Below the pieces are notes generated by a model. The model had not been told where the DNA came from, ran no database searches, and saw only the letters and a program-made list of their open reading frames with translations. The translations under genes and the position numbers were made by a program. From Chytriomyces cf. hyalinus JEL632 (lineage: Eukaryota; Chytridiomycota; Chytridiomycetes; Chytridiales; Chytriomycetaceae), in the NCBI GenBank assembly GCA_025435555.1, contig JAIWWG010000123.1:18076-82075 (forward strand): DNA of 64,000 bases. The letters are read 5' to 3'. Within the stretch, counting starts at the first letter, position 1. Each line of letters starts with the position of its first letter. This document shows positions 13,874 to 46,589 of this stretch, piece by piece.

Positions 13874-13921
13874 TTTTGGAGTGGTTTTTTTTCAATTCCG
13901 CCGATTTGCAATATTTTTTTC

Positions 13922-14297
13922 TCAATCAATCAAAGAACAGAACTCCTTTCGGTGGATTGCGTTTAAAAGGAGAGGACTGCAGGATCTACATTCAGAACCT
14001 CGTCGTACTTTGCTTGCGAAGGAAGAGCTGAACAAAAAGATTGGCAGTGCGAGAGTGTAAGTAAGAGGGGTGAGCATTGAAAGCAATGCCACTGCAGATT
14101 TCGCCCCAACCTTCTCTGACAACGTGTCCAAAACGGGAAGTAGAGCATCCACACGCGCGCAAAAGCAGCGCATCCGTCCGACAAGCAAATCCTTTCGTGG
14201 AAAGCAGCCTGTCTGCTGAATCCCCACCGACAAGTTTAACGAGGGTTTTGCGAATGTCGCGAGGACTTTTGGACGCCGCATTACCTGTGACTTTCAC
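13922..14297 (-). pseudogene. relic of the 32-residue-repeat protein family
   Basis: Read on the minus strand, this stretch starts with AASKSPRDIRKTLVKLVG and SADRLLSTKGFACRTDALL, which match the pre-repeat region and first repeat of the genes at 24453, 25740 and 34622. The frame then breaks and continues in another frame as FCARVDALLPVLDTLSEKV with GAKSAVALLS, a later repeat of the same family. The join fits a deletion between two repeat units that left a frameshift. The N-terminal presequence and the C-terminal domain are missing. It lies between the two acyl-CoA synthetase genes, just upstream of copy 1, and may overlap its promoter. Confidence 0.75.
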
Positions 14298-14535
14298 TTG
14301 TTGTGGGTATATTTTTCACTTGACATTTCTTCATTTTATGCCGCTTTCTTCTCGTCCACTTGGAGTGTCTCATATTCGCATTCATCTCTATGCACGAGGA
14401 TATGCCTTTATTCATGTGCAACAACCGGCCACAAATGGTGGCAAAATAAAGAATAAAAGGAGAAACGAAAGACTCGTCAGCTAGTAATAGAACACAAGAC
14501 CAGATTGCCATTATACAAACAGAGCGGAAGATCGA

Positions 14536-16889
<2,354 letters not shown>

Positions 16890-20762: not shown

Positions 20763-22208
20763 TCAGCGCATACGATACACTTCGCAACACTCAATCGCGC
20801 CTTGTGAACTTCCAGTCCCACACACTTCTTTGATAAACGCGCATCCTCCACCATTGAACCCGGAAAAAACGTATTGACTCATCCTACCAACCAGCACATG
20901 CCCCTTCACATTCAATTCGAAATTTGATCCATTCAAGCCACGATTCCATTCATATACGTCATAATTCGCGGGTGCAATATAGGGTCCACCCAAAATCCCT
21001 CCACAGTTATTCTGGAATGGCAAACGCAAGAACCCCCCACTGGGTGCAATCAGAAACGTGAAAGAAGAAGGGCATATACGTGCGGACAGACTCGTACATG
21101 CCTCGGCAGTATATCCTCCGACAATACTCCCACTTTTGAGTTTGACGAGTGTGAGTGTGTTTGGTTTTCCATCGCGTGCCTTGTGCAAGTTTCTGTCAGT
21201 GCAGACGCCTGGTTCTCCATGAAACAAGCGAATAGGATCTGAAGCGACGAAAGAACTTAAAGGAACTGGAAGATTTTTCTGAATTGCATGTAAACTGTCA
21301 ACCAGCGGAGCCTTCCATTTGTTGCCTCCAGAACACGTTTTCCCCTTCAGATGAAATTCAAGCATGCGCTGCATAGATTCAGAAAGCAGAACTTGGAATG
21401 GTTCCACCAGACTGGAGTGTGCCGCAGAAATTTTGAACAACTCGACCACGGGCAGCAACGGCTCAATCAACTTGCTGGCCGCTCCTATCTGAAATTCTTT
21501 TGGAAGATCCGATTCCAGAGAGAGGTCCCCTTCTGCATCTTGACAAGCTCTGCACCAAGCAATCAAAATTCTCCAGCGATCGACGGGCTCAAACGACTCA
21601 TACAAGAGCATGGTCTCGACATCTCTTCCACTCATTTGCGCCAACACTTCCCGGCCAGATTTCAGCGATAACGGCAGATTTTGCAACATTTTGCTGAGGC
21701 CAATCGACTTCTTGTCCTCGATCGCGTGTATTCTGTCGCACAGGAAGTATAATGCCAGCGCATTTTCTGGAGACAAGTTCTCTACCTTCACAAGAATAAC
21801 AGCACACTTTTGTACCAGATTGAAGACCATGATTTCGTTGGCAAAGACAATCACGTTGGAAGCACGCGCCGGTGGAATTTCCACATCTCCAAAGTACAAA
21901 TAATCAAGCAGAATCTTGGCTGTCTCGGCACTGACATTCGTATGGTTGAGCGTGATTTTCCTGGTGTTGGATTTCCGAGACAGCTGCCTCTTTTTGGAGA
22001 TGTGTGCCACCGGAGAATCGCTTTCCCATCTATTTGATGTCCATTTTTCGGAGAGAGCCTCCTTGTAGCAGTCACTCGCAGAGGCAAGCACAACTGCATG
22101 GGCAGTTAATACAGCGCCACCTTCAAAGACGAGACCCACGTCAGCGTACGTGGTATCATTTCGGATCCGGCCCGGCAGAGTGCTGAATACGATGTTGCGT
22201 GGTTCCAT
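20763..22208 (-). CDS. BTB-BACK-TLDc domain protein, intact copy
   Basis: This is a single-exon protein of 481 residues starting at the ATG at 22208 (MEPRNIVF). The BTB/POZ domain (about 8-125) includes ADVGLVFEGGAVLTAHAVVL and NVSAETAKILLDYLYFGDVE. A BACK-like helical region (about 130-230) follows, with ENALALYFLCDRIHAIEDKK. A TLDc domain (about 310-481) includes LFHGEPGVCTDRN, FTFLIAPSGGFLRLPF, NVKGHVLVGRMSQYVFSGF and the terminal AIECCEVYRM. BTB proteins often recruit Cullin-3 ubiquitin ligases, and TLDc proteins can regulate the V-ATPase or oxidative-stress responses. Which applies here is unknown. The domain set resembles animal BTB-TLDc proteins. A decayed copy lies directly upstream (22740-24093). 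Confidence 0.85.
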   Translation of the reverse strand: MEPRNIVFSTLPGRIRNDTTYADVGLVFEGGAVLTAHAVVLASASDCYKEALSEKWTSNRWESDSPVAHISKKRQLSRKSNTRKITLNHTNVSAETAKILLDYLYFGDVEIPPARASNVIVFANEIMVFNLVQKCAVILVKVENLSPENALALYFLCDRIHAIEDKKSIGLSKMLQNLPLSLKSGREVLAQMSGRDVETMLLYESFEPVDRWRILIAWCRACQDAEGDLSLESDLPKEFQIGAASKLIEPLLPVVELFKISAAHSSLVEPFQVLLSESMQRMLEFHLKGKTCSGGNKWKAPLVDSLHAIQKNLPVPLSSFVASDPIRLFHGEPGVCTDRNLHKARDGKPNTLTLVKLKSGSIVGGYTAEACTSLSARICPSSFTFLIAPSGGFLRLPFQNNCGGILGGPYIAPANYDVYEWNRGLNGSNFELNVKGHVLVGRMSQYVFSGFNGGGCAFIKEVCGTGSSQGAIECCEVYRMR

Positions 22209-22739
22209 TGCTGGTAAAGGGGGAAATTGTTTCAGCACCGAATACAAGGTACTGTCTCAAAAGGTGTTAGTGCTGACCTTTGTCAAGGTTGTGTGGGCAA
22301 GTGCAAACAAGTGGTTGGGGAAAATGCGCGTATTTGTGTCAGCATGCATCTGATGTCTCGCCGCAGCCTCAAAACCCGCAGACTTTCAAGAAAGAAGAGT
22401 TTTCATGTAAGAGGCTTGTCGAGGATGTAATCCGACCTTCTGCTCTGTCATTTCTCAACTGTCTTTCACTTTTAAATTGAAACACATCGTTATGTGTGGA
22501 TATGAACGCGTTTGACGCCATTCTTTTCATGGCTGTGCCTCTTTGGGTCCCTGTCTTGCCATCTGGGTCTAGAGTTTCTTTCCCCCGCCCATTATTACCT
22601 CTGCGTAGGGGTTGTGAAAGTGATAGTGGAGTATGGCGGAGTTGGCATCGTGCATTTTGTTAAAGGGTTGCATTTGAAGAAACACACGTCCGTGTTCTGC
22701 ATCTGCAGACAGACATGTAAGTTATGTATGCGATGACAA
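22209..22739. other. intergenic region between the BTB-TLDc copies
   Basis: No gene is supported in about 530 nt. Near 22210-22290 the sequence upstream of the intact gene aligns with the region upstream of the broken copy (both encode a SVLKQ-like stretch without an ATG), so the duplication unit extends into the 5' region. Confidence 0.45.
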
Positions 22740-24093
22740 CAAAAAATTGACAGCCTCAAACCCAGAAAAACTGAGTCGATTAATCCTAGCAGTCAGCACA
22801 TGTCCCTTCACAGACAAGTCGGAATTCAATCTGAATATGGGTTGAGAATACTGGTTCACAACATTTTTTGTCTTGGAAGGCAAACGGCGCGACAACCCAC
22901 TGGATGTGATCAGAAACACGAAAGACGCATGGCTTCCATTGTGCTGGTACTGGTTCGTCCATGCCTCAGTAGAAAATTCCCCAAAAATAGTCCCAGTTTT
23001 GAGTTTGTCGAGTGTGAGCGCTCGTGCAGGTCACTTTGCAGGTAACTTTCGGTGCGAGCTGGTTCCCCATGAAACAAGAGAGCATAATCTGAAGCATCGT
23101 AATCCCTCAAAGGAGCTGGAAGATATTTCTTGATTGCATCCACTATGTAATGCGGTGTGTCTGGCTGAGATGGCACATTTGACTTCCATCGGTTCCCTCC
23201 AGTTTGCGTTGTCCCTTTCAGATGAAATTCAAGCATACGCCGCATAGATTCAGAAAGCAGAACTTGGAATGGTTCCACCAGACTGGAGTTTCCCGCAGAA
23301 ATTTTGAAAACTCGACCACGGGCAACAACGGCTCAATCAACTTGCTGGACGCTCCGATCTGAAATTCTTCTGGAAGAACCGATTCCAGAGAGAGGTCCCC
23401 TTCCGACCCCAGGGAGGCTTTGCACCATGCAATCAAGATCCTCCAGCGATGCAAGGGTTCAAACGACTCAAACAAGAGAATTGTCTCGACATCTCGTGCA
23501 TTCATTTGCGCCAACACCTCGCGGACAGATTCCAGCAATGACGGCAGATTCTGCATCATTTTGCCGAGCCCAATCGACTTCTTGTCCTCGATCGCGTGTA
23601 TTCTGTCGCAGAGGAAGTAAAATGCGAGAGCGTATTCCACAGATAGGTACTCTTCCTTCGCAAGAATATCCGTGCACTTTTGCACGAGACTAAAGACTAT
23701 GATCTCGTTGGCGAATACAATCACGCTGAAAGCAAGAGACGGCGGAATATCCACATCTCCCAAGTACATGTAATCGAGGACTATCTTGGCTGTCTCAGCA
23801 TCGACGTCTGGGTGATGGAGCATGATCTTCCGGCTGTTGGATCTCGGTCTCTTGTTGGAGATGTGGGACAACTTCGAATCTGCCTCGTCATCAATCACCT
23901 GGAGGCTTTCGAAAGCATTCGCCGTCCATTTTTCGGAGAGAGACTCTTTGTAGTAATCACTCGTAGAGGCAAGCACAACCGCGTGCGCAGTCAACACAGC
24001 GCCACCTTCAAAGACAAGTTCAAGGTCAGCGAATGCCGTGTCGCTTCGGATCCGGCCCAGTAGGATGCTGGATGCTTTGTTCCGTGTTTCCAT
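22740..24093 (-). pseudogene. broken copy of the BTB-BACK-TLDc gene
   Basis: It runs from the ATG at 24093 (METRNKASS), aligned to the start of the intact copy at 20763-22208. BTB and BACK parts are open down to about 23310. There one base is missing relative to the paralogue, after LLPVVE. The paralogue continues LFKISAAHSSLVEPF, while here the frame changes and SSLVEPFQVLLSES resumes in a second frame. Further breaks occur in the TLDc half: the frame holding LLFHGEPARTESY runs into unmatched sequence, and FLITSSGLSRRLPS with SVKGHVLTARINRLSFSGF is found in yet another frame ending near 22740. An N-terminal BTB-only protein of roughly 290 residues could still be made, so loss of function is likely but not proven. 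Confidence 0.8.
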
Positions 24094-24452
24094 GGCCAGT
24101 GAAGGGGGATTTTGTTTCAACACTGAATGCAGGGTGGTGTCTTTAAAGGTGTTTGTTGTGACCTTTGCCAAGGGGGATTACTTGGGATCGGCAGGGTGGG
24201 TGGGAAAGTTTATCAAAGGTGGTTGGGGAAAAATGCGCCCGTCCTTCTAATGATGCATCTGATCTTCCGTTCTGTCACCAGCTGACGTGACTGCGTTTCT
24301 CACCGTTATTTTCTTTTCTGCGCATGAAGAAAGCCGCATCCTTGTGCATGGGTACCAATGCTTGCTCACATACGACAAGCCGAAAGTGTCCGACCTTGTC
24401 CGAAAGAGGGACTGTTATAACATATTACACCCAAAACAAGAGAAAACACAAC
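24094..24452. other. short divergent intergenic region
   Basis: About 360 nt separate the broken BTB-TLDc gene from the repeat-protein gene on the opposite strand. An in-frame ATG at 24324 exists upstream of the chosen start, but the extra residues do not match the paralogues. Confidence 0.4.
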
Positions 24453-25583
24453 ATGAATCTGTTTGCGAGATGTTTCGCTCTGCGTCCTACCATCCACCCT
24501 CGCATCAAGAGCAACGCGCGCTCAATCCCACTGGCGACTATCTTCAGTCGAGATATCCAGCGATCTGAACACCGCCATCTCGCAACATCGACCGCCGCAC
24601 GGCATGCGTCCTCAAAGAGTTCTCGAGACGTTCGAAAAAAGCTCGTTAAACTCGTCGGCGCGTACTCAGCAGACAGGCTGCTTTCGACTCTTGGCTTCGC
24701 TTGTCGTACTGATGCTCTGCTTCCAACTCTGGAACATCTCACAAACAAAATTGGAAAGGAGAATGCCGTTCGATTACTGTCAACCGACAGTTTTTGCGCC
24801 CATCATGAAAGTCTCCTGTCTGTTTTGGATAATCTTTCCGACAAGTTGGGGACCGAATTGGCAGTTTCACTGCTCTCAAATGGCAGCTTTTGTGCTCGCG
24901 CAAATTCTCTACTTCCGGTTCTGGAAAGGATGGTGGATAATGTTGGGAAGGGATCCGCAGTCACGCTGTTTTCGAAAAGCAGCTTCTCTACTCGCGTTGA
25001 GGCACTACTGCCCATTCTAAACTCCCTCTCCAAGAAACTGGGAACGGAAACGGCAGTGTCTCTGCTTTCGACCAATAGCTTTTGCTCTCGCGCTGAGAAT
25101 TTGCTGCCTGTTTTGAACATTCTCTCGGAAAAGATTGGAACGAAATCCGCAGTGGCATTGCTTTCAACGGGCAGCTTTTGCGTTCGTGCCGAAACTCTGC
25201 TTCCAGTCTTGGATCGCTTGTCTGACCAACTTGGAACAGAATCTGCGGTCCGACTTCTTTCCCACGATAGTTTTTGTGCGCGGGTGGATAAACTGATGGC
25301 CAAGTTTCCTGAGATTCAAAGCGTGTTGGGTACACAGGGTGCCATACGTGTTCTTTCAAATGATTCTCTGGCATCTATGGACGCATCACAATGGCAAGAA
25401 TTTATGGAGTTTATTCGAAATGCTCAGCCTGAGCATGTCATGTTGTACTTGGGATCGAGAGGAACGGTGTCAAAGTGTAAGAGAGTTGGCTGGGGCATAT
25501 GCGTAGATTTGTATCGGAATGCATCTCAAAAGGAAAGGACAAGAGCCGGGTTCAAGAGATTGGTGGATGAATACGCATTGTGA
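24453..25583 (+). CDS. 32-residue-repeat protein, intact copy, probably mitochondrial
   Basis: I do not recognise this family. The single-exon protein has 376 residues. I chose the ATG at 24453 because MNLFARCFALRP aligns with the starts of the copies at 25740 and 34622. Residues 1-60 are rich in Arg, Ser, Ala and Leu and nearly free of acidic residues (for example HRHLATSTAARHASS), as in mitochondrial presequences. A short conserved segment (DVRKKLVKLVG) precedes about seven tandem repeats of exactly 32 residues, of type FCARxExLLPVLDxLSxKL then GTESAVxLLSxxS; each should form about two helices. The last unit changes to MAKFPEIQSVLG and leads to a unique C-terminal part (SMDASQWQEFMEFIRNAQPE, KCKRVGWGICVDLY, RAGFKRLV). 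The layout resembles organelle RNA-binding helical-repeat proteins (PPR, OPR, mTERF), but the motif is not one of these as far as I can tell. Confidence 0.75.
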   Translation: MNLFARCFALRPTIHPRIKSNARSIPLATIFSRDIQRSEHRHLATSTAARHASSKSSRDVRKKLVKLVGAYSADRLLSTLGFACRTDALLPTLEHLTNKIGKENAVRLLSTDSFCAHHESLLSVLDNLSDKLGTELAVSLLSNGSFCARANSLLPVLERMVDNVGKGSAVTLFSKSSFSTRVEALLPILNSLSKKLGTETAVSLLSTNSFCSRAENLLPVLNILSEKIGTKSAVALLSTGSFCVRAETLLPVLDRLSDQLGTESAVRLLSHDSFCARVDKLMAKFPEIQSVLGTQGAIRVLSNDSLASMDASQWQEFMEFIRNAQPEHVMLYLGSRGTVSKCKRVGWGICVDLYRNASQKERTRAGFKRLVDEYAL

Positions 25584-26305
25584 TTTTGCGTTCTTGATGA
25601 TCTCTCCTTGAATGCATTTGCGTCATGCTCTGACTATACAATAAACCAAAGATTCAGCGAAAATGATGCAGCAAAATGTAGCGGAAGCCGAAAGTGTCCG
25701 AGAAAAGGAAACTGTAAAATCTTAAAATATACCCTCGAAATGAATGTCCTTGCCAGATGCTTCGCTCTGCGTCCAGCTGTACACGCTCGCATCAACATCA
25801 ACTTGTGCACAACTCCACTTGCGATGGTCTTCAGTCGACACATCAAGCCATTCCCGCACCGCCATCTCGCAACATCCACCACACGTAATGCGGCCTCCAA
25901 AAGTCCTCGCGACGTACGAAAAACATTCGTAAAGCTTGTGGGCGAGCACTCGGCGGAAAGGCTGCTTTCGACCAACAGCTTCATTTGTCGGACTGATGCG
26001 CTGCTTCCGACCCTGGACCATCTTACCAAAAAAATTGGAGCGAAGAATGCTGTTCGATTTCTCTCCACAGACAGTTTTTGCGCACGTTATGATGGTCTCC
26101 TTCCAGTTTTGGATCATGTTTCCGACAAGTTGGGGATGAAGCCAGCTGTTGCGCTCCTTTCGAGAAACGGCTTTTGTGCTCGCGCGGATGCCTTTCTTCC
26201 TGTTTTGGACATGCTATCAGAGATGATTGGGGCTAAAGCTTCGGTCACGTTACTTTCTTCAGACAGCTTTTGTGCTCGCGTTGAAACACTGCTTCCTCAT
26301 TTGGA

Positions 26306-26317
26306 CTCTCTCTCTCT
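26306..26317 (+). repeat. (CT)6 tract causing first frameshift
   Basis: The tract is twelve bases of CT inside a repeat codon block of the copy at 25740; one unit fewer would continue the upstream frame. Confidence 0.85.
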
Positions 26318-26403
26318 GAGACGCTGGGGACGGAATCTGCAGTCCCGTTGCTTTCTTCAGACAGTTTCAGCGCTCGAGTTGATATTCTCCTCCCAGTTTT
26401 GGG

Positions 26404-26415
26404 CTCTCTCTCTCT
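26404..26415 (+). repeat. (CT)6 tract causing second frameshift
   Basis: The tract is at the equivalent position of the next 96-nt repeat, 98 nt downstream of the first, again one CT unit longer than the frame allows. Confidence 0.85.
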
Positions 26416-27069
26416 GAGAAGCTGGGGACGAAATCTGCAGTTTCTCTGCTTTCGTCAGGCGGTTTTTGTGTGCGGGCCGAGGCTCTCGTTCCAATATTGT
26501 TCTCTCTGTCAAAAGATATTGGGATGGAATCTTCGGTTAGGCTGCTTCCTTCAAACAGTTTTTGCGCTCGTATTGATGCTCTCATGCCAATATTCGATTT
26601 TCTGTCAAACGCGGTTGGGTCAAAATTGGCGGTGGCATTGCTTTCGAACGACAGCTTTTGTGATCGTGCCGAAATACTTCTTCCAATTTTGGATCGTCTG
26701 TCAGATCAATTTGGAATAGAAGATGCGGTCCGTCTTCTTTCCTGCGACAGCTTTTGTGTGCGAGTCGATGAACTAATGGCGAAATATCCCGAAATTGAAG
26801 CCGCGTTGGGTGAAAAGGGTGGCATTCGTGTTCTTTCAAATTATTCTCTAGCTTCTATGGACGCAACTCAATGGCAAGAATTAATGGATTTCATACGAAA
26901 TGCGCAGCCGGAGCATGTCATGTCGTACTTGGGAACAAAAACGGTGGCAAAATGCAAAAAGGCGGGTTGGGGAATTTGCGCGGATTTGTATCAGCAAGCA
27001 TCTCAGCAAGAGAAGACAAGAGCTGGGTTTCAGAAATTGGTGAACGGATACCTGCAGGAAGTATTGTGA

Positions 27070-28239
27070 TTTGCGTTCTTGACGGGGTTTCTCAAACTCT
27101 GCTTGAATGCATTTACATCAAAATTCTGGCTCCAATGAACCACGGATTTAGCGAAAATGGCGCAAACAACTGGAATTAGAATATCGCTACTCCGAATCGA
27201 ACTCAAAATCATAGGGTGCTCTTCTGGGGGGTTGAAATGAATCCAGTTGCAAGGACGGGGTAAGCTGAGAGTTGCGAAGACGGACTTTGAGTACGGACAA
27301 AGTACGGAAACATAGGCTACAATCGCAAAACAAGAACGTATGTGCAGGCTGGTGGGAACGAAAGTTTGCTCAAAAAAATAGAATGATGGGCTGCACTCGA
27401 AAGAGATGATAAATGGATTTGACTACCACAACACTTGACTAGTGCTTGGACACGAGGCACAATAATCACATTAGATCATGAACGCATGTCCACGAAAGGA
27501 AAACACAATCAGAAGTGCGTTTATTCAGACGGTTTGTTTTGGGTCTGTTTGAGCGCTCAAGCGAATGGACGGAAGTCGCTCTTTGGGGATCCCAGCTACT
27601 TTCTCATTCAGACTACTGAATGGATAGATATGAATACAGCCAATAGAGATACGTTCATGCTTGTAAAAGCGTCTCGTTGTAAAGCTGTAAAACGTGTCCC
27701 TGTAACGTTGCTTCTTGTAAAAACACTCACAACCATCTTGATATGCACGTATGTATTGAGACAGCCACGGCGAGTGAAGAAACCATGTATCGCGGACTGC
27801 TCCCTTTGGTCAGTCGGACGAATGGTCGGATTGATAAATTGGGGTCATGATTTTGACGGCACGCACGCACTTAAAAAATTTGCGTGATTTAATCAATTGG
27901 ACACGCACGCTCAAGCTGGGGTCAGTCTGTGCGTGCGGCAGTCAGCGGCAGTCCTGGGTTAGCGGCAGTCCATGCGGTGTGTGTGTGTGTGTGTAGGTGG
28001 GTGTGTGTGTGGGGGATTGCGGCGAAGAGAAAGCAAGCGACCTTGCTTGGGACACTGCGAGTCTAAACACGCGGGCATCCATCCCCACTCACAAAATTGT
28101 ATGTTGCAATATGATAACCCTCACCCCTGCATGCCCTGCTTTTTAATAAAAAAACCTTCACAATCATCACCTTCCTAAACTGGGTTACTCAAGAGCTACA
28201 AAACCTTTCCTTACAACCACCTCCCCACGTCAGACAAAC
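27070..28239. other. long intergenic region
   Basis: No supported gene is seen in about 1.17 kb. An open frame around 27435-27887 starts with TTG and lacks recognisable features. Three copies of GCGGCAGTC occur around 27935-27970, just before a GT repeat. Confidence 0.5.
27977..28015. repeat. (GT)n microsatellite
   Basis: Two GT runs are separated by AGGTGG and end in a short G run, about 225 nt upstream of the first phosphate transporter gene. Confidence 0.9.
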
Positions 28240-29965
28240 ATGGGCTACGGATACACCGACAGAGGCACAGAGTCCGCCAAACGTGCCCAAGCATTCGCAC
28301 ACCTCGATGAAGCCCGGCTCGGCTGGTTCCATCTGCGCGCCGTCATTGTGTCAGGAGTCGGTTTCTTTGCCGATGCATACGACATCTTTGTCATTGGTCA
28401 GGCCATTCCCATGGTCTACCAGATCTACTACGGCCCACAATACATCTCTGGATCGTACCCAGCCAACATGCCAGGCCTCAACAACACTCAACCCATCCCA
28501 AAAACACCACAAAACACCAAAGTCAACTTCAACGACAACTACCCCATGGGCGCTCACATGGACGCCTGGCTCAAGGCTTCCACCAACTGGGGAAACTTTT
28601 TCGGACAGATTGGGTTTGGAATCTTGGGTGATCAGTTGGGAAGGAAAAAAATGTACGGTGTGGAACTGATTGTCATGATTGTGTGTACAATTGGATCTGC
28701 AATGGCTGGACCGATGGTGCATGGATGGAACATTCTCGTGATTCTGTCCATCTGGCGATTCTTTTTGGGTGTCGGTATCGGTGGTGATTACCCAATGTCT
28801 GCCGTCATCACCTCCGAGTTTGCCAACGTGCGATATCGTGGAATGATGTTGTCGGCTGTGTTTGCAATGCAAGGAATCGGAATCATGGTTGGAGGACTTG
28901 TGTACATGGCCACGCTTGCTGCGTTCAAGTCGCAGATCCAAACGGATTACACGACCCTGGACATTGTCTGGCGTATTGCGCTTGGGTTCGGAGCCGTGCC
29001 TGCTCTGGGCGCTGTTTACTTCCGAATGACGATTCCCGAGACTCCGCGTTTCACTGTTGATGGTAAACAAAAACACGTGCCTTTATGGTGTAAATCCATT
29101 TTAACTATGTTTTTTTTTCACAGTTATCGGAGACACCCACAAGGCCGATTCCGATGTTGCCCGAGTCCTCGCCCTCAACAATGTTGCCTCCGTTTCTTCC
29201 AGCTGGGAAGGCGAAGATATCGCAACTGCCAAAGTCGCAGTCAAGAGTAACACGTTTGCCGACTTTCGCGCATACTTTGGACAATGGCGGCACATGAAGA
29301 CCCTGATTGGAACCTCGTACACTTGGTTTGCGCTTGATGTTGCTTGGTACGGTCTCGCGTTGAACCAGTCCACGGTGCTATCGCTCATCAACTTTAACGG
29401 GCCAGCGAAAGTGAAAGTAAACGGCTCGTCCATCACACCGCCTGTTGACATTGCCGAGTTGTTTTACCAGAATGCACTTGGAAACTTGATCATTGCCTTT
29501 TGCGGGACTGTTCCCGGTTACTGGTTCTGCGTTGCATTTGTTGAAAAGCTCGGCCGCAAGCCCATCCAATACTGCGGCTTCCTCGTAATCACCATATGCC
29601 TGACAGTCCTCGCCGTAATGTGGGACACGATCAAAACACAACAAATCCCGTTCCTGGTTGTTTTCACAATCGCGCAATTCTTTTTCCAATTTGGACCCAA
29701 CACAACCACATTTGTGATTCCCGGTGAAGTGTTTCCCACACGTTTCCGGTCAACTGGACACGGTATTTCTGCTGGATGCGGTAAATTGGGCGCGATTATC
29801 GGGATTCAGGTTGTTGGCCCGTATTTCATTCCGAATGCGCAGATTGTGTTGGCCACGTTTGCAGTAATTATGGCAACGGGTGGGATTGCCACGGCGTTGG
29901 TTCCTGAGACGGCGGGAAAGACGCTCGAGGAGCTTTCTGGCGAGGAAGACGTGATTCTGTCTTAG
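28240..29965 (+). CDS. MFS inorganic phosphate:H+ symporter (Pho84-like), copy 1
   Basis: This is a plasma-membrane high-affinity phosphate uptake carrier of the major facilitator superfamily, phosphate:H+ symporter subfamily. The exons are 28240-29062 and 29124-29965 (554 aa). It has about 12 membrane segments with a long central loop. Family motifs include GVGFFADAYDIFVIGQ in TM1, GDQLGRKKMYG between TM2 and TM3, GIGGDYPMSAVITSEFA in TM4, IPETPRFTVD before the central loop and FQFGPNTTTFVIPGEVFPT in the C-terminal half. The latter motifs are typical of Pho84 and fungal/plant PHT1. The single intron falls right after IPETPRFTVD, exactly as in the paralogue at 32758-34511. Expression is probably phosphate-controlled by analogy with yeast, but no Pho4-type site was verified. 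Confidence 0.93.
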
Positions 29966-30377
29966 TGCCGTTTTTGTTTGTTACTTTTTTTTTCTTTTGT
30001 TCGGTATCCTTGTCGAGATACGGGATCGTGTGAATACGGTCACAAATATACTAATATACATGAAATAAACGAAGAGAATTTGAGCAGTATTATTTTTATT
30101 TCTATTTTTATTTTATTTTCTGAAGGATGACGCCGCACACCCCCACACCCCCCGCCACGCCGCAACTGTGACGCAACGCATCCTTAAGTGCATAAACCAT
30201 AAAGACAAAAAGAGGCAAAATTAGTTTGTAAACTCATTAGTTATTAGATGAAAAACGGAAGCTACGAATGAATTAAGCTCTTAATGAATTTGGTCTTCAA
30301 AAGACTGCCCTCCCGTTCCCTTTTTCACAAACAAACAACAACCTGTAAAAACAAACAACGACACTTCCTTTTTGCAT
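29966..30377. other. intergenic region with 3' signals
   Basis: About 410 nt contain no gene. An AATAAA at 30064-30069 fits the polyadenylation signal of the phosphate transporter. The remainder is A/T-rich, followed by a C-rich stretch near 30140, and should include the promoter of the fasciclin gene. Confidence 0.5.
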
Positions 30378-32339
30378 ATGAACTCGATACTCTCCATACC
30401 CCTGCTACTCCTCCTCTCCGTCTGCTCAGCACAAACGCTTGTCGAAGTGCTCCGCCAAAACAGCGCCACAACACTCCTCCAACTCGCCAAAACCGATTCA
30501 CAACTCTTCAAATCGTTATCCACATTCAAAGGCACCGTATTTGCACCAACAAATGATGCCTTCAGCGCTGCACTGAAAGACGGAGACAGGTTCACGCAGG
30601 ATTCAACGACAGATCGGGTGCTCAAGTATCATTTGATTCCTGATGCAGTGTTTGCTGGGGATGGGTTTGATGGAACGGACTTTTTGGTTAGTTTGAATGG
30701 GAGCGATGTGAAGGTTTCTGGGACTGCGAAGGGAATTGTGGTTTCATCGGCGTGGGATGCACCGCAGGCTAACGTTGTCAAGACTTCTGCATTCACTGGG
30801 GGAGTGGTACACTTTATTGATCAGGTATGTTCCGTGGATACTTTCACAAGTTTTGCAACTTGAAAACTGACTAATTCTAAATGACAGACATTAACGCCAC
30901 CCCTTGGGATCGTGGAAGTTGCCAAAGCAGCGGGACTCACCAGCCTCGTCAGCGCCGTAGTTCAAGCCGGTCTTGCACGCACGATTATAAACCTGAAAGA
31001 CGCTACCGTGTTTGCACCTTCAAACGAAGCCATTGCGCAAATCTCGAGTCTTGTCAACACGCTGTCAAAGGAACAACTAGCACAGGTGCTGCTTCTACAT
31101 GTGGTCCCGAACCAGCGGCTGCACTCGACTGACTTTGCCACGTCGGCCCTGTTGACGTCAAGCACCGAAGCGCGTGTGCAGGTTCAGAAGGATGCTCAGG
31201 GTGTGGCTGTGAGTGGGCCTGGAAATGATGTTGCTGCGAGAGTTGTTACGGCAGATGTGCTTGCGAGTGTGGGTATTGTTATGCATGTTGTTGACAAGGT
31301 GCTGTTGCCGGCTGGGATGCTAGGTGGGATGGAGCCAGCTTCAGAGCCATCTGCCGATGTTACTACCATGAAAGGAACACTCAGAGTCGGGAAACTGGCA
31401 GCTGCGGTTGAGGGTGAAGGCGCTGCAGGAGGCGCTTCGTTGATTGCAGTTTTGAAGGAAAACAAGGCAACCACGCTCCTGAGCCTGGTTCAAAGCGACA
31501 AACCCATCCTGAATGCACTGGCTGATTTTAAAGGAACTCTGTTTGCACCCACGGACAAGGCCCTTGCCGCCTCAGTCGCAGCTGGTTTCAATCCAAAGAA
31601 CTTGACTCTTCTGTCCACAGTTCTCAAGTACCACGCCATCCCAACAACCGTGTTTGCGGAAAAGTCATTCACAGGAACTCAGTTTCTCAAGAGCTTGGAA
31701 GGGGATGAAGTAAAGGCATCCGGGTCCAGCGCCAAAGGCATCACCATCACTAGTGCATTCAATGCAAACACTGCAAACGTGGTTTCAAGCATGGCCTTCA
31801 GCGGCGGCATTGTCCACTTTATCGATGCGACACTGACACCGCCCACGGACATTGTCACGGTCGCAAAGCAAGCGAAACTGACGGCGCTGTTGAATGCAAT
31901 CATGTCGGCGGGTCTTTTGGATACGATTGTGAACCTCAAGACTGCGACCGTCTTTGCACCTTCGGACCAAGCGTTTGCGGCCATTTCGGCGACCGCGGCC
32001 AAACTTTCAAAGGAGCAGCTGAAGCAGGTGCTGCTCATGCATGTGGTTCCTGGGAAGCTGGTTCACTCGACGGAAGCAGCGGAAGCCAAGAATTTACCAA
32101 GCGTTGGCACGGCGGCGTCAGGACAAATGATTAGTGTCCAATCGGATGGAACGACTGTGCTGGTGAAGGGGGGCGGCAACAAGAACCCTAGCAAGGTTGT
32201 TGTGGCGGATGTGGTTGTGATGGGACCTCTGGTTGTGCATGTAATTGACCAGGTGTTGCTGCCGGGGAATCTGTCTGCAGGTGTTGGATCGATTGTAGCG
32301 TTGAATGTAGTGTTCTGGATGGCATTGTTTATTCTTTGA
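30378..32339 (+). CDS. secreted, probably GPI-anchored fasciclin (FAS1) protein with four domains
   Basis: This is a predicted cell-surface adhesion-type protein. The exons are 30378-30824 and 30888-32339 (632 aa). A signal peptide (MNSILSIPLLLLLSVCSA) is followed by four FAS1 domains at about 20-145, 150-290, 330-465 and 466-600. Each has the pattern TVFAPTNDAF or TVFAPSxxAF (H1 motif) and a terminal VHFIDQTLTPP or VHVIDQVLLP segment (H2-like). Domains 1 and 3 resemble each other (LKYHLIP / LKYHAIP), as do 2 and 4 (LLHVVPNQRLHSTD / LMHVVPGKLVHSTE), so a two-domain unit was duplicated. The C-terminus ends in a hydrophobic segment (VALNVVFWMALFIL) after Ser/Gly residues, as in GPI attachment. 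I used the ATG at 30378; the only extension possible would begin with TTG. It lies between two phosphate transporter paralogues. Confidence 0.9.
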
Positions 32340-32757
32340 AGCATTTTTTTCATGAACATATTTTTGGCATAAAACGAAGCAGTGAGCATTGAAAATGACC
32401 AGGTGGACCAGATCCATGCCATGTATGTTGTGGATACTCATTGCTCGCCGCAGTTTGCTTTTCATACTCAACGGTCGCCGCAGTTCAATTATTTGCGGCA
32501 AACAAAAACGTTAAAAATATGCCAATTTGTTCATTATGAACAATTTCCATCTCAACTGCCAAGAAATGAAAAATTGCCGACAATTTTCAATCAAGCAAAG
32601 CGCGCGTGCCCTCAAGGGTGCTTAAAATTGCCGACAAATGCGTTGGCGCGTGGCCTAAAACTGCGGCGCGTGCCCAAATGATTTGCATACAAAAACGGGT
32701 GGGGACGGGTCCCATCCGTTTTAGAAAGAACCCAACACTGCACTTTCAAAACAGCAA
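32340..32757. other. intergenic region
   Basis: About 420 nt contain no supported gene. It includes the promoter of the second phosphate transporter. Confidence 0.4.
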
Positions 32758-34511
32758 ATGTTCCTCGTTGCTTCAGACCACTCCAACGACATTGACGTCC
32801 CTGTTGCCGAGGTTACCAAGCGTGCTCAAGCATTTGCACATCTCGATGAAGCCAAGCTCGGCTGGTTCCACCTGCGTGCTGTCATTGTCTCCGGTGTCGG
32901 TTTCTTTGCCGATGCGTACGACATCTTTGTCATTGGCCAGGCCCTGCCTATGATCTACCAAGTCTACTACGGCCCCAAGTACATCTCTGGCTCGTACCCC
33001 GCCAACATCCCAGGACTCAACAACACGGAAAAAATCCCCAAAACGCCGCAAAACACCAAAGTCAACTTCAACGACAACTACCCCAACGGTCACCACATGG
33101 ATGCTTGGCTCAAGGCTTCCACCAACTGGGGCAACATGATTGGACAAGTATTTTTCGGTGTCCTCGGAGACAAGCTTGGCCGGAAAAAAATGTACGGCAT
33201 TGAGCTGATTATCATGATTGTTTGCACGATTGGTTCTGCGCTTTGTTCTTCGATGGTCAACGGATGGTCTGTTCTGGTACTGCTATCGATTTGGCGCTTC
33301 TTTTTGGGAGTCGGCATTGGTGGTGACTACCCAATGTCTGCCGTCATCACCTCCGAGTTTGCCAACGTGCGGTACCGCGGGATGATGCTGGCAGCTGTGT
33401 TCGCCATGCAGGGAATCGGTATCATGGTTGGAGGAATCGTCTTCATCTCAACTCTTGCTGCAATGCGCGCTCAGATTCAGGCCGACTACACTGTCTTGGA
33501 TCAAGTCTGGCGTATTGCGCTCGGATTTGGAATCGTGCCAGCGCTGGCGGCGGTTTACTTTCGATTGACGATTCCAGAGACACCGCGTTTCACTGTTGAT
33601 GGTTCGTCAGCGTTTATTTCTTGTCCAAATCAACTGCCTCCTAACACCGTACTCTATTTTTAGTCGTTGGTGATACGGCCAAAGCAGATGCTGATGTTGC
33701 CCAAGTGCTCGCTCTCAACAACGTTGCGTCCGTGTCGTCCAGCTGGCAGGACACTGACGATGCTGCTTCTCCTAAAGTGGTGGTCAAGGACAACTCGTGG
33801 GCCGACTTCAAAGGATACTTTGGCCAATGGAAAAACATGAAAGTCATCATCGGGACAGCATACACTTGGTTCGCTCTCGACGTTGCTTGGTACGGTCTCT
33901 CCCTCAACCAGTCAACCGTCTTGAACTTGATCAACTTTAACGGCCCAAGCAAAGTCGCTGTCAACGGCACAAAAATCACACCACCTGTCGACATTGCAGA
34001 CTTGTTTTACCAAATCGCCGTCGGAAACTTGATCATTGCGTTCTGCGGTACTGTCCCCGGCTACTGGTTCTGCGTCGCCCTGATTGAAAAGCTCGGGCGC
34101 AAGCCCATCCAGTACTTTGGGTTCTTTGTCATCACCATTTGTCTCACCATCCTTGCTGTCTTGTGGGACGATATCAAGAACCAGCAAACGCAGTTCCTCG
34201 TCGTGTTTACCATTGCCCAGTTCTTTTTCCAGTTTGGGCCAAACACGACCACTTTTATTGTTCCGGGAGAAGTCTTCCCAACACGGTTCCGATCCACAGG
34301 TCATGGTATTTCAGCTGCATGCGGGAAAGTTGGCGCCATCCTTGGTATCCAAGCGGTTGGACCTTACTTTTCAGAGAATGCAAGGATTGTGTTGGCAGTG
34401 TTTGCAGTGATTATGGCAACGGGTGGGGCTGCAACTTGGCTCATTCCGGAGACTGCTGGAAAGACTTTGGAGGAGTTATCTGGGGAAGATTCCGCATTTG
34501 AAACTGCATAA
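32758..34511 (+). CDS. MFS inorganic phosphate:H+ symporter (Pho84-like), copy 2
   Basis: This is a paralogue of the gene at 28240-29965 with the same predicted role in phosphate uptake. The exons are 32758-33601 and 33664-34511 (563 aa). The two proteins are nearly identical in the membrane segments (GVGFFADAYDIFVIGQ, GIGGDYPMSAVITSEFA, FQFGPNTTTFIVPGEVFPT). They differ at the first ~20 residues, in the central loop (WQDTDDAASPKVVVKDNSWA here) and in the C-terminal tail. The intron is at the identical phase and site in both. High identity at the protein level with different introns and flanks suggests duplication followed by purifying selection. An AATAAA lies at 34516-34521, a few bases past the stop. 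Confidence 0.93.
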
Positions 34512-34515
34512 GTAA

Positions 34516-34521
34516 ATAAAG
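34516..34521 (+). terminator. AATAAA polyadenylation signal of phosphate transporter copy 2
   Basis: A canonical hexamer lies 5 nt after the stop codon, in the short gap before the convergent repeat-protein gene. Confidence 0.5.
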
Positions 34522-34621
34522 GCTGTGTTTGTATTTACTTGATCAGCCTAAAGAGAATCCAAATTTACAATCCTCCCTGCGCATATTCGTCCACCAATTT
34601 CTCAAATCCGGCTCTTGTTTT

Positions 34622-35968
34622 CTAAAGCTGAGATGCATCCCGATATAATTCCGCGCATTTTCCCCAACCAACTTTTTTATACTTTGACACCGTCACTGGT
34701 GATCCCAAGTACGACATAACATCATCAGGCTGGGCCAGTCGAATAAAATCCATAAATTCTCGCCATTGTGCTGCGTCCATAGAAGCCAACGAACCATTTG
34801 AAAGAACTCGAATGGCGGCCTTTTCCCCCAATATGCTTTGAATCTCAGGAAATTTCGCCATCAGTTCCTCTACTCGTGCACAAAAGCTGCCGCAGGAAAG
34901 GAGACGGACTGCTGATATTGTTCCAAGTTGATCAGACAAACGATCCAGCACAGGAAGCAGAGATTCGGCACGAGAACAAAAGCTATCTCTCGAAAGAAGT
35001 GCCACTGCAGATTTCGCACCAACTGATTTAGATAAAGCGTCCAATATTGGCAGAAGGGTCTTAAAGTGCGCACAAAATCCGGATGACGAAAGCAGCTTAA
35101 CAGCAGATTTTGTCCCCAGCTTCTCAGAGAGTGTGGTGACAACGGGAAGTAGAGCCTCATGCTTAGCAGAAAAGCCATCCGCTGAAAGCAGCGCAACTGC
35201 CGATTCCATCCCCAATTCCTCTGACAAAACGTCCAAAACTGGAAGCAGAGAATCTGCGCGCGCACAAAAACTGTCTTTCGAAAGCAACGCGACTGCATTT
35301 TTTACCCCAAACTTCTCTGACAGCACATCCAGAACTGGAAGTAGAGCATCCAAATGCGCATAAAAACCGGTTGAAGAAAGCAGCCTGACTGCAGATTCCG
35401 TCCCGAGCTTTTCGCAAAGTGTGCAGACAACCGGAACGAGAGACTCTGCGTCAGCGCAAAATCTGTATTTGGAAAACAGTGAAACTGCCAATTTTGTCCC
35501 AATCTTGTCTGATAACGTGTCCAAAACTGGAAGGAGAGTATCCGCACGTGCACAAAAGCGGTCTTTTGAAAGAAACGCGACTGCAGCTTCTGTTCCGAGT
35601 TTCTCCGAGAGAGCTTCGAAAACGGGCAGGAGTGCCTTATGATGCGCGCAAAAACCGTTGGTTGACAGTAACTGAACGGCATTCTTTGCTCCAATTTTGT
35701 GTGTGAGATGGTTCAGAGTTGGAAGCAGCGCAGCTGCCCGAGATGCGAAGCCTTTTGTCGACAGTAACTTATCCGCTGAGTCTTCGCCCACGAGTTGAAC
35801 GACGGTTTTTCGAATGGCGGGTGAGGCCGCACGGTGTGTTGTTGATGTTGCAAGATGGCGGTGCATGGATGGCCAGACATCTCGACTGAAGACAATCGAA
35901 AATGGAGTTCCGCGCAAGTTGATGCTGATGCGAGTGTGGATGGCTGGACGCAGGCATCTTGCCAACAT
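34622..35968 (-). CDS. 32-residue-repeat protein, long copy with shortened C-terminus
   Basis: This single-exon protein has 448 residues and belongs to the same family as the genes at 24453 and 25740, but on the other strand. It opens with MLARCLRPAIHTR and an Arg/Ser-rich presequence (HRHLATSTTHRAASPAIRK), suggesting mitochondrial import. About ten repeats of exactly 32 residues follow, for example FCARADSLLPVLDVLSEELG with MESAVALLSADG, then the modified last unit (MAKFPEIQSILGEKA) and the unique C-terminal part (MDAAQWREFMDFIRLAQP, KYKKVGWGKCAELY). The paralogues continue for about 17-20 residues beyond this stop. Here a TAG (34624-34622) sits where they have Glu or Arg codons. The downstream frame still reads KTRAGFEKLVDEYA to a TAA at 34567-34565. 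So the end was lost by one nonsense change, and the protein is probably otherwise functional. Confidence 0.72.
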   Translation of the reverse strand: MLARCLRPAIHTRISINLRGTPFSIVFSRDVWPSMHRHLATSTTHRAASPAIRKTVVQLVGEDSADKLLSTKGFASRAAALLPTLNHLTHKIGAKNAVQLLSTNGFCAHHKALLPVFEALSEKLGTEAAVAFLSKDRFCARADTLLPVLDTLSDKIGTKLAVSLFSKYRFCADAESLVPVVCTLCEKLGTESAVRLLSSTGFYAHLDALLPVLDVLSEKFGVKNAVALLSKDSFCARADSLLPVLDVLSEELGMESAVALLSADGFSAKHEALLPVVTTLSEKLGTKSAVKLLSSSGFCAHFKTLLPILDALSKSVGAKSAVALLSRDSFCSRAESLLPVLDRLSDQLGTISAVRLLSCGSFCARVEELMAKFPEIQSILGEKAAIRVLSNGSLASMDAAQWREFMDFIRLAQPDDVMSYLGSPVTVSKYKKVGWGKCAELYRDASQL

Positions 35969-42613: not shown

Positions 42614-45600
42614 CTAGAGCATCAAAGCGAGACCGGCGGCAAAAGCGGCAAAAGCGCTAGCAACAACAGTCGAAACGGCGCCAGATTTGTACAAGTTGGT
42701 TGGCTTGGGGGTAGCAGGTGCTGGTGGGGCAGCGTAGGTAGGGGAGGCAATGATCACTGGGACAGAGGTTGGTGCAACGCTGCTGGCAGATGCGGAGGGG
42801 TCAACGCTGGCGGATCCACTTGGGTCGGAGACAACTGAGGAAACAGTGGCAGTGGAAGCGCCAGTGGCGGCAGAACCAGTAGCGGCTGAACCGGTGGCAG
42901 CAGAACCAGTAGCGACAACAGTTCCAGTGGAGGCAGAAGATCCGACAACAGTTCCAGTGGAAGCAGAAGAACCAGCAGTAGTAGCAACAGAGCTGGCAGA
43001 AGAAGCAGTCGCGATGGTAGCAACCGAAGAAGCAGTAGACGCAGAGCTAGATGGCTCAACTTCACCAGTAGAAAGCTTAAACTTTGGTGACAAGATGATA
43101 TCAAAGTCATCTTCATTATTGCTGTCCAGAATGCAAAAGTTTTTGACGGCAGTGAACTTGACCTTGTACTCTCCCTGGGGAAGGGCAGCAGCGTAACCGC
43201 TAGCGTTGTAAGCCTTTCCAAAGAATCCCCAAACATTGGGTGGAGCAGCTGGTGCAGCGCCGGCGTACGAGTGTCTCTGCATGGGGACAAACAGGGCGGC
43301 AGTGACTGGGTTACCTTCCGTAATCAAGTCGGTAAGTTGAATGTAGATGGGTGCGGACGTGTTGAAACCGGCGGCTTCAAGAGAACTGGATCTCTTCTTG
43401 GACACTCCTTGGGCAATGATTTCAATAAAGGCTCCACGGGTGGTACTCGAAGCAACAGCCAAAAGACCAGCACCCGTTGTGGCGTTGATGACGGCTCCTT
43501 CAGTCAAGGTGTTAAAGTCCATGTCGGCAAAGAGTCCAGTAGAGACAGAGGGAAGACCGGTTGGTTTGCCCCATCTTTCAGCAAGGGAGGCAGATTCGCG
43601 AGACCAGATGGCCTTGCCCTTGTATGATCCAAGAACTCCTGCGTATGGGACGTGGATTGGGTAGTCTGCCTGGTTGGACGCAGAAATTTGAATGTATCCA
43701 GAGTAGATTGGGAGTGGAGTAAGAGCAGTCCCTTCGGTAAACTGGACGGTAACCTGCGCAGATGCACCGGCAGCAATGGTGAGAGAGTTGACGGAGAAGG
43801 AGAGCTTGGCGCGCTGGTCCTCAGTGAACGTGGTGGTGGTAGCGTCCTGGGTAAAGTCATCACCGGCCAAGTATCCGTTCACAGTGGCAGCACTGAGGTA
43901 AGACAATTCGTACGTGACTGGCTCAATATCATTGTTCTGGATGGTCAGGACGGTGGAGGGCTTAAAGTTCTCAGTGTCGTTCAAGGCAATGGCAGATGGG
44001 AGGACAAGAGACTTGGTAGAAGCGGCAAAGAAGGCGTTGACCAAACCAGCTCCTTGGTAAGCGACAGAGTTGAAAGATTCAGACTTGTAAATGTTTCTTG
44101 GGGAAGCAGTGTTTTGCAGGTATCCACGGACTTCCTCAAACTTGATTCCACGAGCTTGTCTCTGCTGAAGAAGCAGGGCAGTGACTCCAGCAGAGTATGG
44201 AGAAGCCATCGAGGTTCCACTGTATGATCCGTATGGAACAGCGTAGTTTTCAACCTGGGCAGCGTGGACAGACACGGTGCTGTAAACTTGTCCACCAAGA
44301 CCTCCAAAGTCTGGCTTGATTTCCAAATCGAGGGACAATCCGGGGGAGGAGAAGGAAGAGATGGTTCCAGCGGTTGGGATTGGGTAAGGCTTCTGCTTGG
44401 TGGTGAAGACAAAGTTTGGCTTTCCACCAGCCTTGATCTTGGCAATGAGAGCCAAGCCACCAGCGCGGCTCAAGAACATGCTTGGAAGACCCTTGTTACC
44501 GGCGATTCCGACGAGCTCATCGGTGTTTCCGTAAAGAATACATTGGGCAGCTCCTGCAGCGAGAGCGTAACCGCAACGCTTGGAGCTTCCTCCCTGAGTG
44601 GTGCTTCCCCAACGAAGGAGGAGAGCCTTTCCTTTAGCAGCTGGGTTAAGGTTGGTGGCTCCATCGGTCTGAAGATCAGTGTCATCGGCAGTGATGTCTA
44701 AATTTGAAAAGTCAGATAGGTGGGCATAAATGCAGTAGATTCTACTGTCTCACCGTTCACGACAATGTCCAAGACCTGGCCTTCAACGAATGATGCATTG
44801 TTTTGACCCAACCCGTAGAAGTAGGACTGTTCGTCAATAAGGGAGTATGGCAAAGGAGTGACGGTGTTGTCAAACGAGGCAACCGAGAGACCACCTTGAG
44901 CGTTACTGGGGTTTCCAGTCACCTGAAGACCCTTGGCACCAGAGTTACCAGCAGACGCAAGGACAATGTGTCCGTACTTTCCAACAATGGTCGCGGCAAT
45001 CGTGTCGGGCTCGTCGGCGTAGTCTGGGCCACCACCAAGAGAGAGGTTGATGATATCAGCACCGGCATCAGCGGCTCTGTAGATGGCAGCAGTAATGATA
45101 TCAGTTCCAGTGTTATCAGCTGGGCATCCAAAGACTCTGAATGCGAGAAGGTTGGCCTCATAGGCAACACCGGTGAATGGAACAGCTGGCTCAAATCCTG
45201 CTTCAACAATGTTACGCGCGTCGGCGGCAACGATACCGGCAACGTGAGTTCCATGGGAGTTTCCACTGCAGTTGTCGATAGGGTCATCGTCTGGGACTGG
45301 TACTGGGTTGGCTGCAGAGTAATCATCACCGACCAAGTCGTATCCACCAAGGACCTTGAATCCTTTTCCCATACCACCTCCAAGAGCGGGGTGCAAGTAG
45401 TAGATACCACTGTCAATGATTGCGACAGTGATTCCCTTTCCGGTAAGTCCGAGCGTGTTGCGTGCATCGTTCACACCTAGAATGAGTTTACACAATCAGT
45501 TTTGAGATTGCATCGACCCGTTTCAGAACAGATACGCACCAGTGATGGAGTGGTAAGCTTCGTCACTAATTGGCGCTCCGGCATCAGCAGATGATACCAC

Positions 45601-45997
45601 TGGCTGTGGGGCAGGTCTCGATGTGACAACAGAGAAGGAAGACGCCTTGGGGAGTCCGGCAAAGATGGTATCAGCGTCCTCTGGGAAATCAGGGAACGTA
45701 TTACAAATATGTCTCGGGATCAGAAGGGGGAAAAAAAACAAACTCACGGCAGTCTCCGACGAGCTGAACAGAAACAAAGTTGGCAAACTTGTTGTTGATG
45801 GAGGTACGTTCTGTCCACTGGACGCCCTTTCCGGCAAGGTGCTGGTTCAGGAGAGCATGGCCATCAACGCCTTGCTCAAAGTCGATGAGGAAGGCACAGG
45901 TGAGGGCGTTGGGTGCATCGAGTGGGGCACCACGTCTAACAAGGGCGAATGTCTGGGAGGCCAGAAGCAGCGAGGAGAGGATACCCGTCAGCTGCAT
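42614..45997 (-). CDS. secreted GPI-type subtilisin (S8) serine protease, copy 1
   Basis: This is an extracellular subtilase that degrades proteins at the cell surface. The exons are 45997-45748, 45680-45540, 45476-44754 and 44697-42614 (1065 aa). A signal peptide (MQLTGILSSLLLASQTFA) and a propeptide of the inhibitor type (CAFLIDFEQGVDGHALL, FANFVSVQLVGDC) precede the catalytic domain. The Asp motif is TVAIIDSGIYYLHPALGGG, His is NSHGTHVAGIVAA, the oxyanion Asn is in LASAGNSGAKG and Ser is SGTSMASPYSAGV. A PA-like insert and a long beta-rich C-terminal half (Fn3-like) place it in the Vpr/C5a-peptidase-like group of subtilases. The tail is a Ser/Ala/Thr-rich stalk and a hydrophobic end (VVASAFAAFAAGLALML), as in GPI-anchored fungal proteins. 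Its tandem paralogue is at 46590-49980. Confidence 0.92.
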
Positions 45998-46589
45998 GTG
46001 TGTGTGTTGTCTATTTTAGATCTAAGGTGTTCTGAGAGGTCAGTAAATATTTAGTTGGTATTTATGGTGGAATGCACAAGCCCAGATTTTTGTGTGCCTC
46101 ATGTGACTAATTTAATCAAAGTGTGGCACAAGACTCAGCCACTCAAGCGCCACTTCAAACACCCAAGTCAGAGTGGAGAGTCCCGTGCGAGTGTGTTGAC
46201 TTGCATGCACCTCTGCTGCGGTACACTTGCGGCACACTTGCGGGGGGGGGGGCGGCGACAGACAGGCGGCGTTAACAAGTTGGGTCGCCTCACAAGCCTG
46301 CAATTGCACAAGGTGCACAAGCCCCAATTTGTCTAAATAGGACAATCTCACAAGCATCACACGCGATTTGCATTTGCATTTATTTGGATGTCGTGACCAG
46401 ATCCAGCATGTCGCGTTTTCCTTTTTGCTTGCATTCAGTCAACAACAAATACACGCAATGTGCGACCCAAAGTAAAATATTCTATTGACAAAGCTAGTGC
46501 AGTATTCACATCGCAAACTTAGTATTTATTAACAACACACAAAGTATCAAAACCGATATTAGAGGAAAAGGCACAACCCATTAAAACCT
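45998..46589. other. intergenic region between the subtilisin copies
   Basis: About 590 nt contain no supported gene. A run of 11 G is at 46242-46252 (plus strand). It should contain the promoter of subtilisin copy 1. Confidence 0.5.

Follow-up and report, generated by a model that had tools for sequence, protein, structure and literature searches.

What do the clustered tandem-repeat genes of the chytrid fungus Chytriomyces cf. hyalinus JEL632 encode? The question is raised by a 64,000-nucleotide stretch of its genome, here called the window (GenBank assembly GCA_025435555.1, contig JAIWWG010000123.1, positions 18,076 to 82,075), which is part of the contig that we label C28. Three genes in it (W1, W2 and W3) and one relic carry 32-residue repeats behind an N-terminus resembling a mitochondrial presequence. 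We searched the whole 37.8 Mb assembly for family copies and found at least 32 loci, whose unit is predicted to build a three-helix solenoid and whose residue 32 changes more often than synonymous sites do. We give about an even chance to the explanation that the family is a lineage-specific repertoire of solenoids similar to TAL effectors (TALEs), which would be imported into mitochondria, would bind nucleic acid and would be diversifying at the residue that sets specificity.

Repeat units, N-termini and predicted fold

A protein search of the genome returned at least 80 matched pieces on nine contigs. Grouped by hand according to position, they form at least 32 loci (four on C28, 13 on C197, four on C14, three on C169, two each on C183, C194 and C216, one each on C215 and C219), all counts being lower bounds. 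Presequence and repeats are open in six copies, namely W1, W3 (with a short tail) and the C197 copies at 44, 59, 118 and 180 kb, as judged with not every fragment inspected codon by codon; the C219 copy is open too, with no ATG ahead of its presequence. A unit scan with a re-estimated matrix, from which four of the 32 loci were left out (C14 67 kb, C169 59 kb, C216 73 kb and C197 90.6 kb), scored 197 units in 28 runs of the scanned DNA, and the unit array exceeds chance expectation. Search and scan agree with an earlier note on this DNA, made from the sequence alone, which had described a clustered paralogue family rich in broken copies.

Each of the six open copies keeps a unit spacing of exactly 96 nt throughout, and other spacings are confined to broken ones. 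The most strongly kept residues are G21 (187 of 197 units), A25 (183), L29 (178), L9 (176), S30 (175), F2 (171) and L16 (164). By entropy the most variable of the 32 positions are, in descending order, 15, 31, 18, 32, 22 and 14, so that a hypervariable pair, residues 31 and 32 (ranks 2 and 4), falls at the turn after helix 1. Residue 31 is mostly T, S, N, K, C or R; at residue 32, 158 of the 197 units carry D, G, N or S. We set aside the mutual information between unit columns: it was strong for residues 10–18 and 24, probably because arrays begin and end with altered units.

The N-termini point to an organelle. The motif R-x-[L/H]-A-[T/S] is present at 13 of 13 tabulated N-termini, preceded by 0–2 acidic residues and a net charge of +3 to +7, in line with the presequences proposed earlier. 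Outside the tabulated set L024 and L031 fit the motif, and L015 (RHLAA) and L029 (RHLGT) deviate. We take the motif to fit presequence cleavage of the R-3 type; the family proteins are probably imported into mitochondria via a cleavable N-terminus. The assembly gave no match to a COX1 profile and hence probably lacks the mitochondrial genome. It does have many chitin-synthase matches and encodes a radial-spoke protein, which marks the source as a flagellate fungus.

AlphaFold2 was run on the window's own proteins (four rows), and good scores were obtained in two of five W1 models and one W3 model. Mean pLDDT (predicted local distance difference test) is 79.1 for W1 (blocks of 84–93 over residues 61–280, 72–87 in the C-terminal part) and 70.6 for W3 (73–92 over residues 51–340, 35–65 beyond). 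A typical modelled unit consists of a helix (22–29), a turn (30–31), a short helix (32–4) and a further helix (6–20), that is, three helices of 8, 5 and 15 residues. The solenoid anticipated by the earlier note is thus borne out by both models, whereas its two-helix unit has to be replaced by a three-helix one. For both models Foldseek and VIA-align ranked TAL-effector and BurrH DNA-binding domains first and mTERF proteins second, a designed repeat fibre being the exception. The listed fold matches (18 and 49 from Foldseek, 50 each from VIA) include designed helical repeats but no PPR, HEAT or ARM chain. The predicted models have the superhelical form of the TALE fold, at weak best E-values (2.6e-3 for W3, 0.36 for W1), and we therefore claim fold resemblance, not homology. 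This ranking points to DNA rather than RNA, between which the earlier note had not chosen, as what such proteins would bind. Among viral models, the W1 solenoid matched the Megaviridae environmental protein A0A5J6VK61 (prob 1.00, E 0.085, TMq 0.42), the unnamed entry G8DF05 (prob 1.00, E 1.0, TMq 0.39) and G8DF18 (prob 0.60); these three BFVD entries (E 0.085 to 5.7) are possible viral TALE/mTERF-like solenoids.

Sequence searches returned no homologue in Pfam, PDB sequences, viral contigs, plasmids, phages or prokaryote genomes, as the earlier note had expected. Five open reading frames (ORFs) of the window gave only sub-threshold Pfam matches (the best, XylR_N, reached 18.1 bits where 23 were required), with no mTERF match and nothing at E ≤ 1 for PPR, OPR, HEAT or ARM, in a search whose HMMER filters discard most weak matches. 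A PDB search with W3 gave one thioredoxin only (E 0.18) and one with profile A1 gave no match. Neither the plasmid search (four Leptolyngbya NB-ARC records, E 0.2) nor the phage search found a relative; the same holds for the viral contigs and prokaryote genomes, where both searches reach close relatives only. Run against the fungus's own genome, the mTERF profile PF02536 had no match within the family. Two PF02536 matches in a single ORF (L039, positions 1417–2439, on C216) were judged spurious: they lie in near-perfect 36-residue tandem repeats, probably a minisatellite, and exceed the mTERF cut-off only when both pieces are summed (24 versus 23.1 bits).

Amino-acid change at residue 32

We compared each unit with its nearest neighbour, a choice made because ratios over all pairs mix related units. 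Overall, the ratio of nonsynonymous to synonymous change (dN/dS) is about 0.4, indicative of purifying selection, and core positions are near 0. Residue 32 tops the 32 positions with a dN of 1.53 times the mean dS, followed by residue 4 (0.98) and residue 31 (0.84); it is also first over all pairs (1.03, then residue 8 at 0.89 and residue 15 at 0.87). As the codons of D, G, N and S interconnect by transitions, we set transitions at codon positions 1 and 2 of residue 32 against the synonymous ones that the same pairs show at third positions. Those at residue 32 were 2.76-fold more frequent in 71 pairs, which share units and hence are not independent. The excess was 5.1-fold in open copies (19 pairs; 3.63-fold in 32 pairs differing by up to 24 nt) and 5.45-fold in pairs differing by up to 10 nt (39 pairs). 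In 27 disjoint pairs, residue 32 takes nine of 67 amino-acid changes (P-value 0.0029 for any position, 0.044 when restricted to 13 variable positions). With this excess of amino-acid change, residue 32 is a candidate specificity residue.

The sister genes L010 and L011 illustrate the turnover. Their 1.5-kb upstream flanks differ at 13 of 1499 bases, whereas their ten units differ at 0 to 33 of 96 bases, two units being identical and one 96-base block being 40% different; the repeat domain therefore changes much faster than the DNA upstream. The short aligned 3' flank is divergent as well (21/72). Repeat turnover in this pair combines substitution with the exchange of units. Synonymous change in its repeats is not exceptionally slow as a standard of comparison (26 of 234 fourfold sites in the gene differ).

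Family members and neighbours in the window

The three genes and the relic listed by the earlier note are all real, and the scan recovered their 32-residue units in each (Table 1). W1 is intact and runs from presequence through the 32-residue units to an altered last unit and a C-terminal domain. In W2 the unit spacing is 96, 96, 96, 98, 98, 96, 96 and 96 nt. Its frame is disrupted twice by a +2 shift at a CT run, once between the unit starts 26265 and 26363 and again between 26363 and 26461. Beyond the premature stop of W3, 18 more codons in the same frame are recognisable as the family tail. The relic, recovered in four blastn pieces (13952–14076, 14003–14051, 14079–14166 and 14163–14289), holds one scored unit (14072–14167) in addition to N-terminal and other remnants. 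The segment bearing it has a duplicate at about 162–166 kb of C197 (89–92% identity), where the counterpart of the relic is longer, likewise broken and flanked by the same two neighbours.

Table 1. Positions of family genes and their parts in the window
Feature	Position	Strand	Content	Basis
W1, complete family gene	24453..25583	+	376 aa, single open frame	
W1 presequence-like N-terminus	24453..24581	+	43 residues, net charge +6, ends R-H-L / A-T	
W1 repeat array	24693..25364	+	7 scored units of 96 nt	unit scan
W2, broken family gene	25740..27069	+	9 units scored	frames, unit spacing, sequence
W3, family gene	34622..35968	-	448 aa open, then premature stop	
W3 repeat array	34793..35752	-	10 scored units	unit scan
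W3 presequence-like N-terminus	35852..35968	-	39 residues, net charge +5	
Relic	about 13952..14290	-		blastn pieces against other copies, unit scan

The duplicated segment (window positions 12666–15595) also carries an AMP-binding (acyl-CoA synthetase-like) gene. Adjoining genes at 20763–24171, 28240–34511 and 42614–48491 are paired duplicates too (two BTB proteins, two subtilase-Fn3 proteins according to Pfam and two highly similar MFS transporters), and the region around the family genes is therefore rich in duplications. Elsewhere in the genome, L022 (C169:44505–48404) is a divergent copy with 46–49% identity to W3, which might represent an older branch.

Known repeat proteins and competing explanations

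The alphabet of the repeat-variable diresidue (RVD) of TALEs is N or H, then D, G, N, I or S. PMC11417379 places the variable base-choosing pair of TALE-likes at positions 12–13, which belong to the loop in a unit of helix-loop-helix form. The comparable place between helices in our unit is residues 31–32, a match based on the order of elements and not on superposition, so this turn could face DNA under either a TALE or an mTERF model. Like TAL effectors and TALE-likes (RipTAL, BurrH/Bat, MOrTL, STAR), the family has tandem units of similar length, a TALE-type solenoid as predicted, and a kept S followed by a hypervariable site after helix 1, with D, G, N or S second and a repertoire that shifts there. 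Unlike them, it has another alphabet at residue 31, a mitochondrial-type presequence and about 32 loci encoded in the nucleus of a fungus. The same source reports a fungal TALE-like protein, AspSTAR1, which resembles our family in having few units. AspSTAR1 has the RVDs and the code of TALEs, together with a type III signal by prediction; our family lacks the TALE sequence hallmarks but looks organelle-addressed and expanded. Since sequence tests for both groups failed, we place the family outside TAL effectors and mTERF.

Several observations weigh against a TALE-like reader of DNA. The TAL_effector repeat profile PF03377 gave nothing at E ≤ 1 in the five window ORFs and only two sub-threshold matches, both outside the family, in a profile search. 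The unit has 32 residues and three helices, as against the helix-loop-helix of 33–35 residues in TALEs, and the fold E-values are weak. In six proteins the net charge of the repeat region is close to zero (–5 to +1), which speaks against strong DNA affinity. The transition test draws repeatedly on the same units, and in broken copies alone its excess is 1.81-fold and not significant (P-value 0.07, 32 pairs).

The near-neutral charge would suit an organelle solenoid that binds protein or RNA, its hypervariable turn touching RNA or a fast-evolving protein. Restorer-like clusters, too, are best known from PPR proteins. Yet the five window ORFs scanned have no PPR, OPR, HEAT or ARM match at E ≤ 1, and the top fold matches bind double-stranded DNA, so we regard this explanation as quite improbable. 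A highly derived mTERF family, that is, mitochondrial three-helix terminators or replication roadblocks with no one-residue code, is unlikely, if less so. It would account for the organelle-type address, for the three helices per unit of our models, as in mTERF according to PMC4705650, and for MTERF1, MTERF3, MTERF4 and a Tetrahymena mitoribosome chain following the TALE group among the fold matches; prokaryotic pTERF also resembles the family in its tandem arrangement. However, TALE chains outscore mTERF chains with both models and PF02536 misses the family. In the description of MTERF1 in PMC4705650, each motif has a proline that caps its central helix, whereas in our units P occurs at residue 32 in seven and at residue 31 in two of 197. 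Moreover, PMC3981765 describes mTERFs as apparently absent in fungi.

Residue 32 could also be fast merely through tolerance at a helix cap combined with shuffling by unit exchange, with no role in specificity. The RRY codons common to D, N, S and G, the unit exchange evident in L010/L011 and the non-significant excess in broken copies agree with this. But under tolerance the synonymous rate is a ceiling, yet 2.8- to 5.5-fold was seen; the excess is greatest in open copies and closest pairs, and exchange would shift synonymous sites equally. We consider this account more doubtful than either preceding one. That most of the loci are tandem-repeat genes in decay, serving no function today, is barely credible: six of 32 loci being open over presequence and repeats would fit, but a dN/dS of about 0.4, near 0 at core positions, does not.

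Overall, we suggest that the family is a nucleus-encoded, fungus-lineage set of modular solenoid proteins, each of which probably enters mitochondria by its cleavable N-terminus. The three-helix units would probably wind along DNA in the manner of TAL effectors and mTERFs. Residues 31–32 in the turn that follows helix 1, chiefly residue 32, would then face the nucleic acid and determine specificity at roughly one residue per base. Paralogues that duplicate, swap units and alter residue 32 beyond the synonymous rate might thereby sample new targets. Speculatively, the most likely role would be that of restorer genes: to obstruct or silence mitochondrial sequences that keep changing, such as mobile introns, plasmids or selfish variants. 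The family shares with plant restorer-of-fertility-like clusters (PPR, mTERF) the grouping of paralogues, broken copies, high turnover and a presumed mitochondrial address, along with diversification at its putative specificity residue; it differs in being fungal, in its repeat and in having no known mitochondrial antagonist. Further background comes from PMC5472282 and PMC3778013.

A bolder version, which we hold to be somewhat unlikely, is that a zoosporic fungus has its own nucleus-encoded, TALE-like readers of mitochondrial DNA, with essentially a one-residue-per-base code and under positive selection against selfish mitochondrial DNA, as a guard of the organelle genome. Because AspSTAR1 has been reported from a fungus (PMC11417379), a TALE-like protein in a eukaryote is not in itself new. 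Our literature search, largely without subscription journals, found no report of such a repeat family, nor of the features that set it apart: an address to the organelle, a native repertoire of this size, a unit of 32 residues and a signal of selection. TALE-type modular DNA readers are known chiefly from bacteria. If our interpretation is correct, a large native mitochondrial family in a eukaryote would show where TALE-type modules can arise, would offer a natural test of nucleus–mitochondrion conflict in fungi and would provide compact DNA-reading modules with a built-in organelle address.
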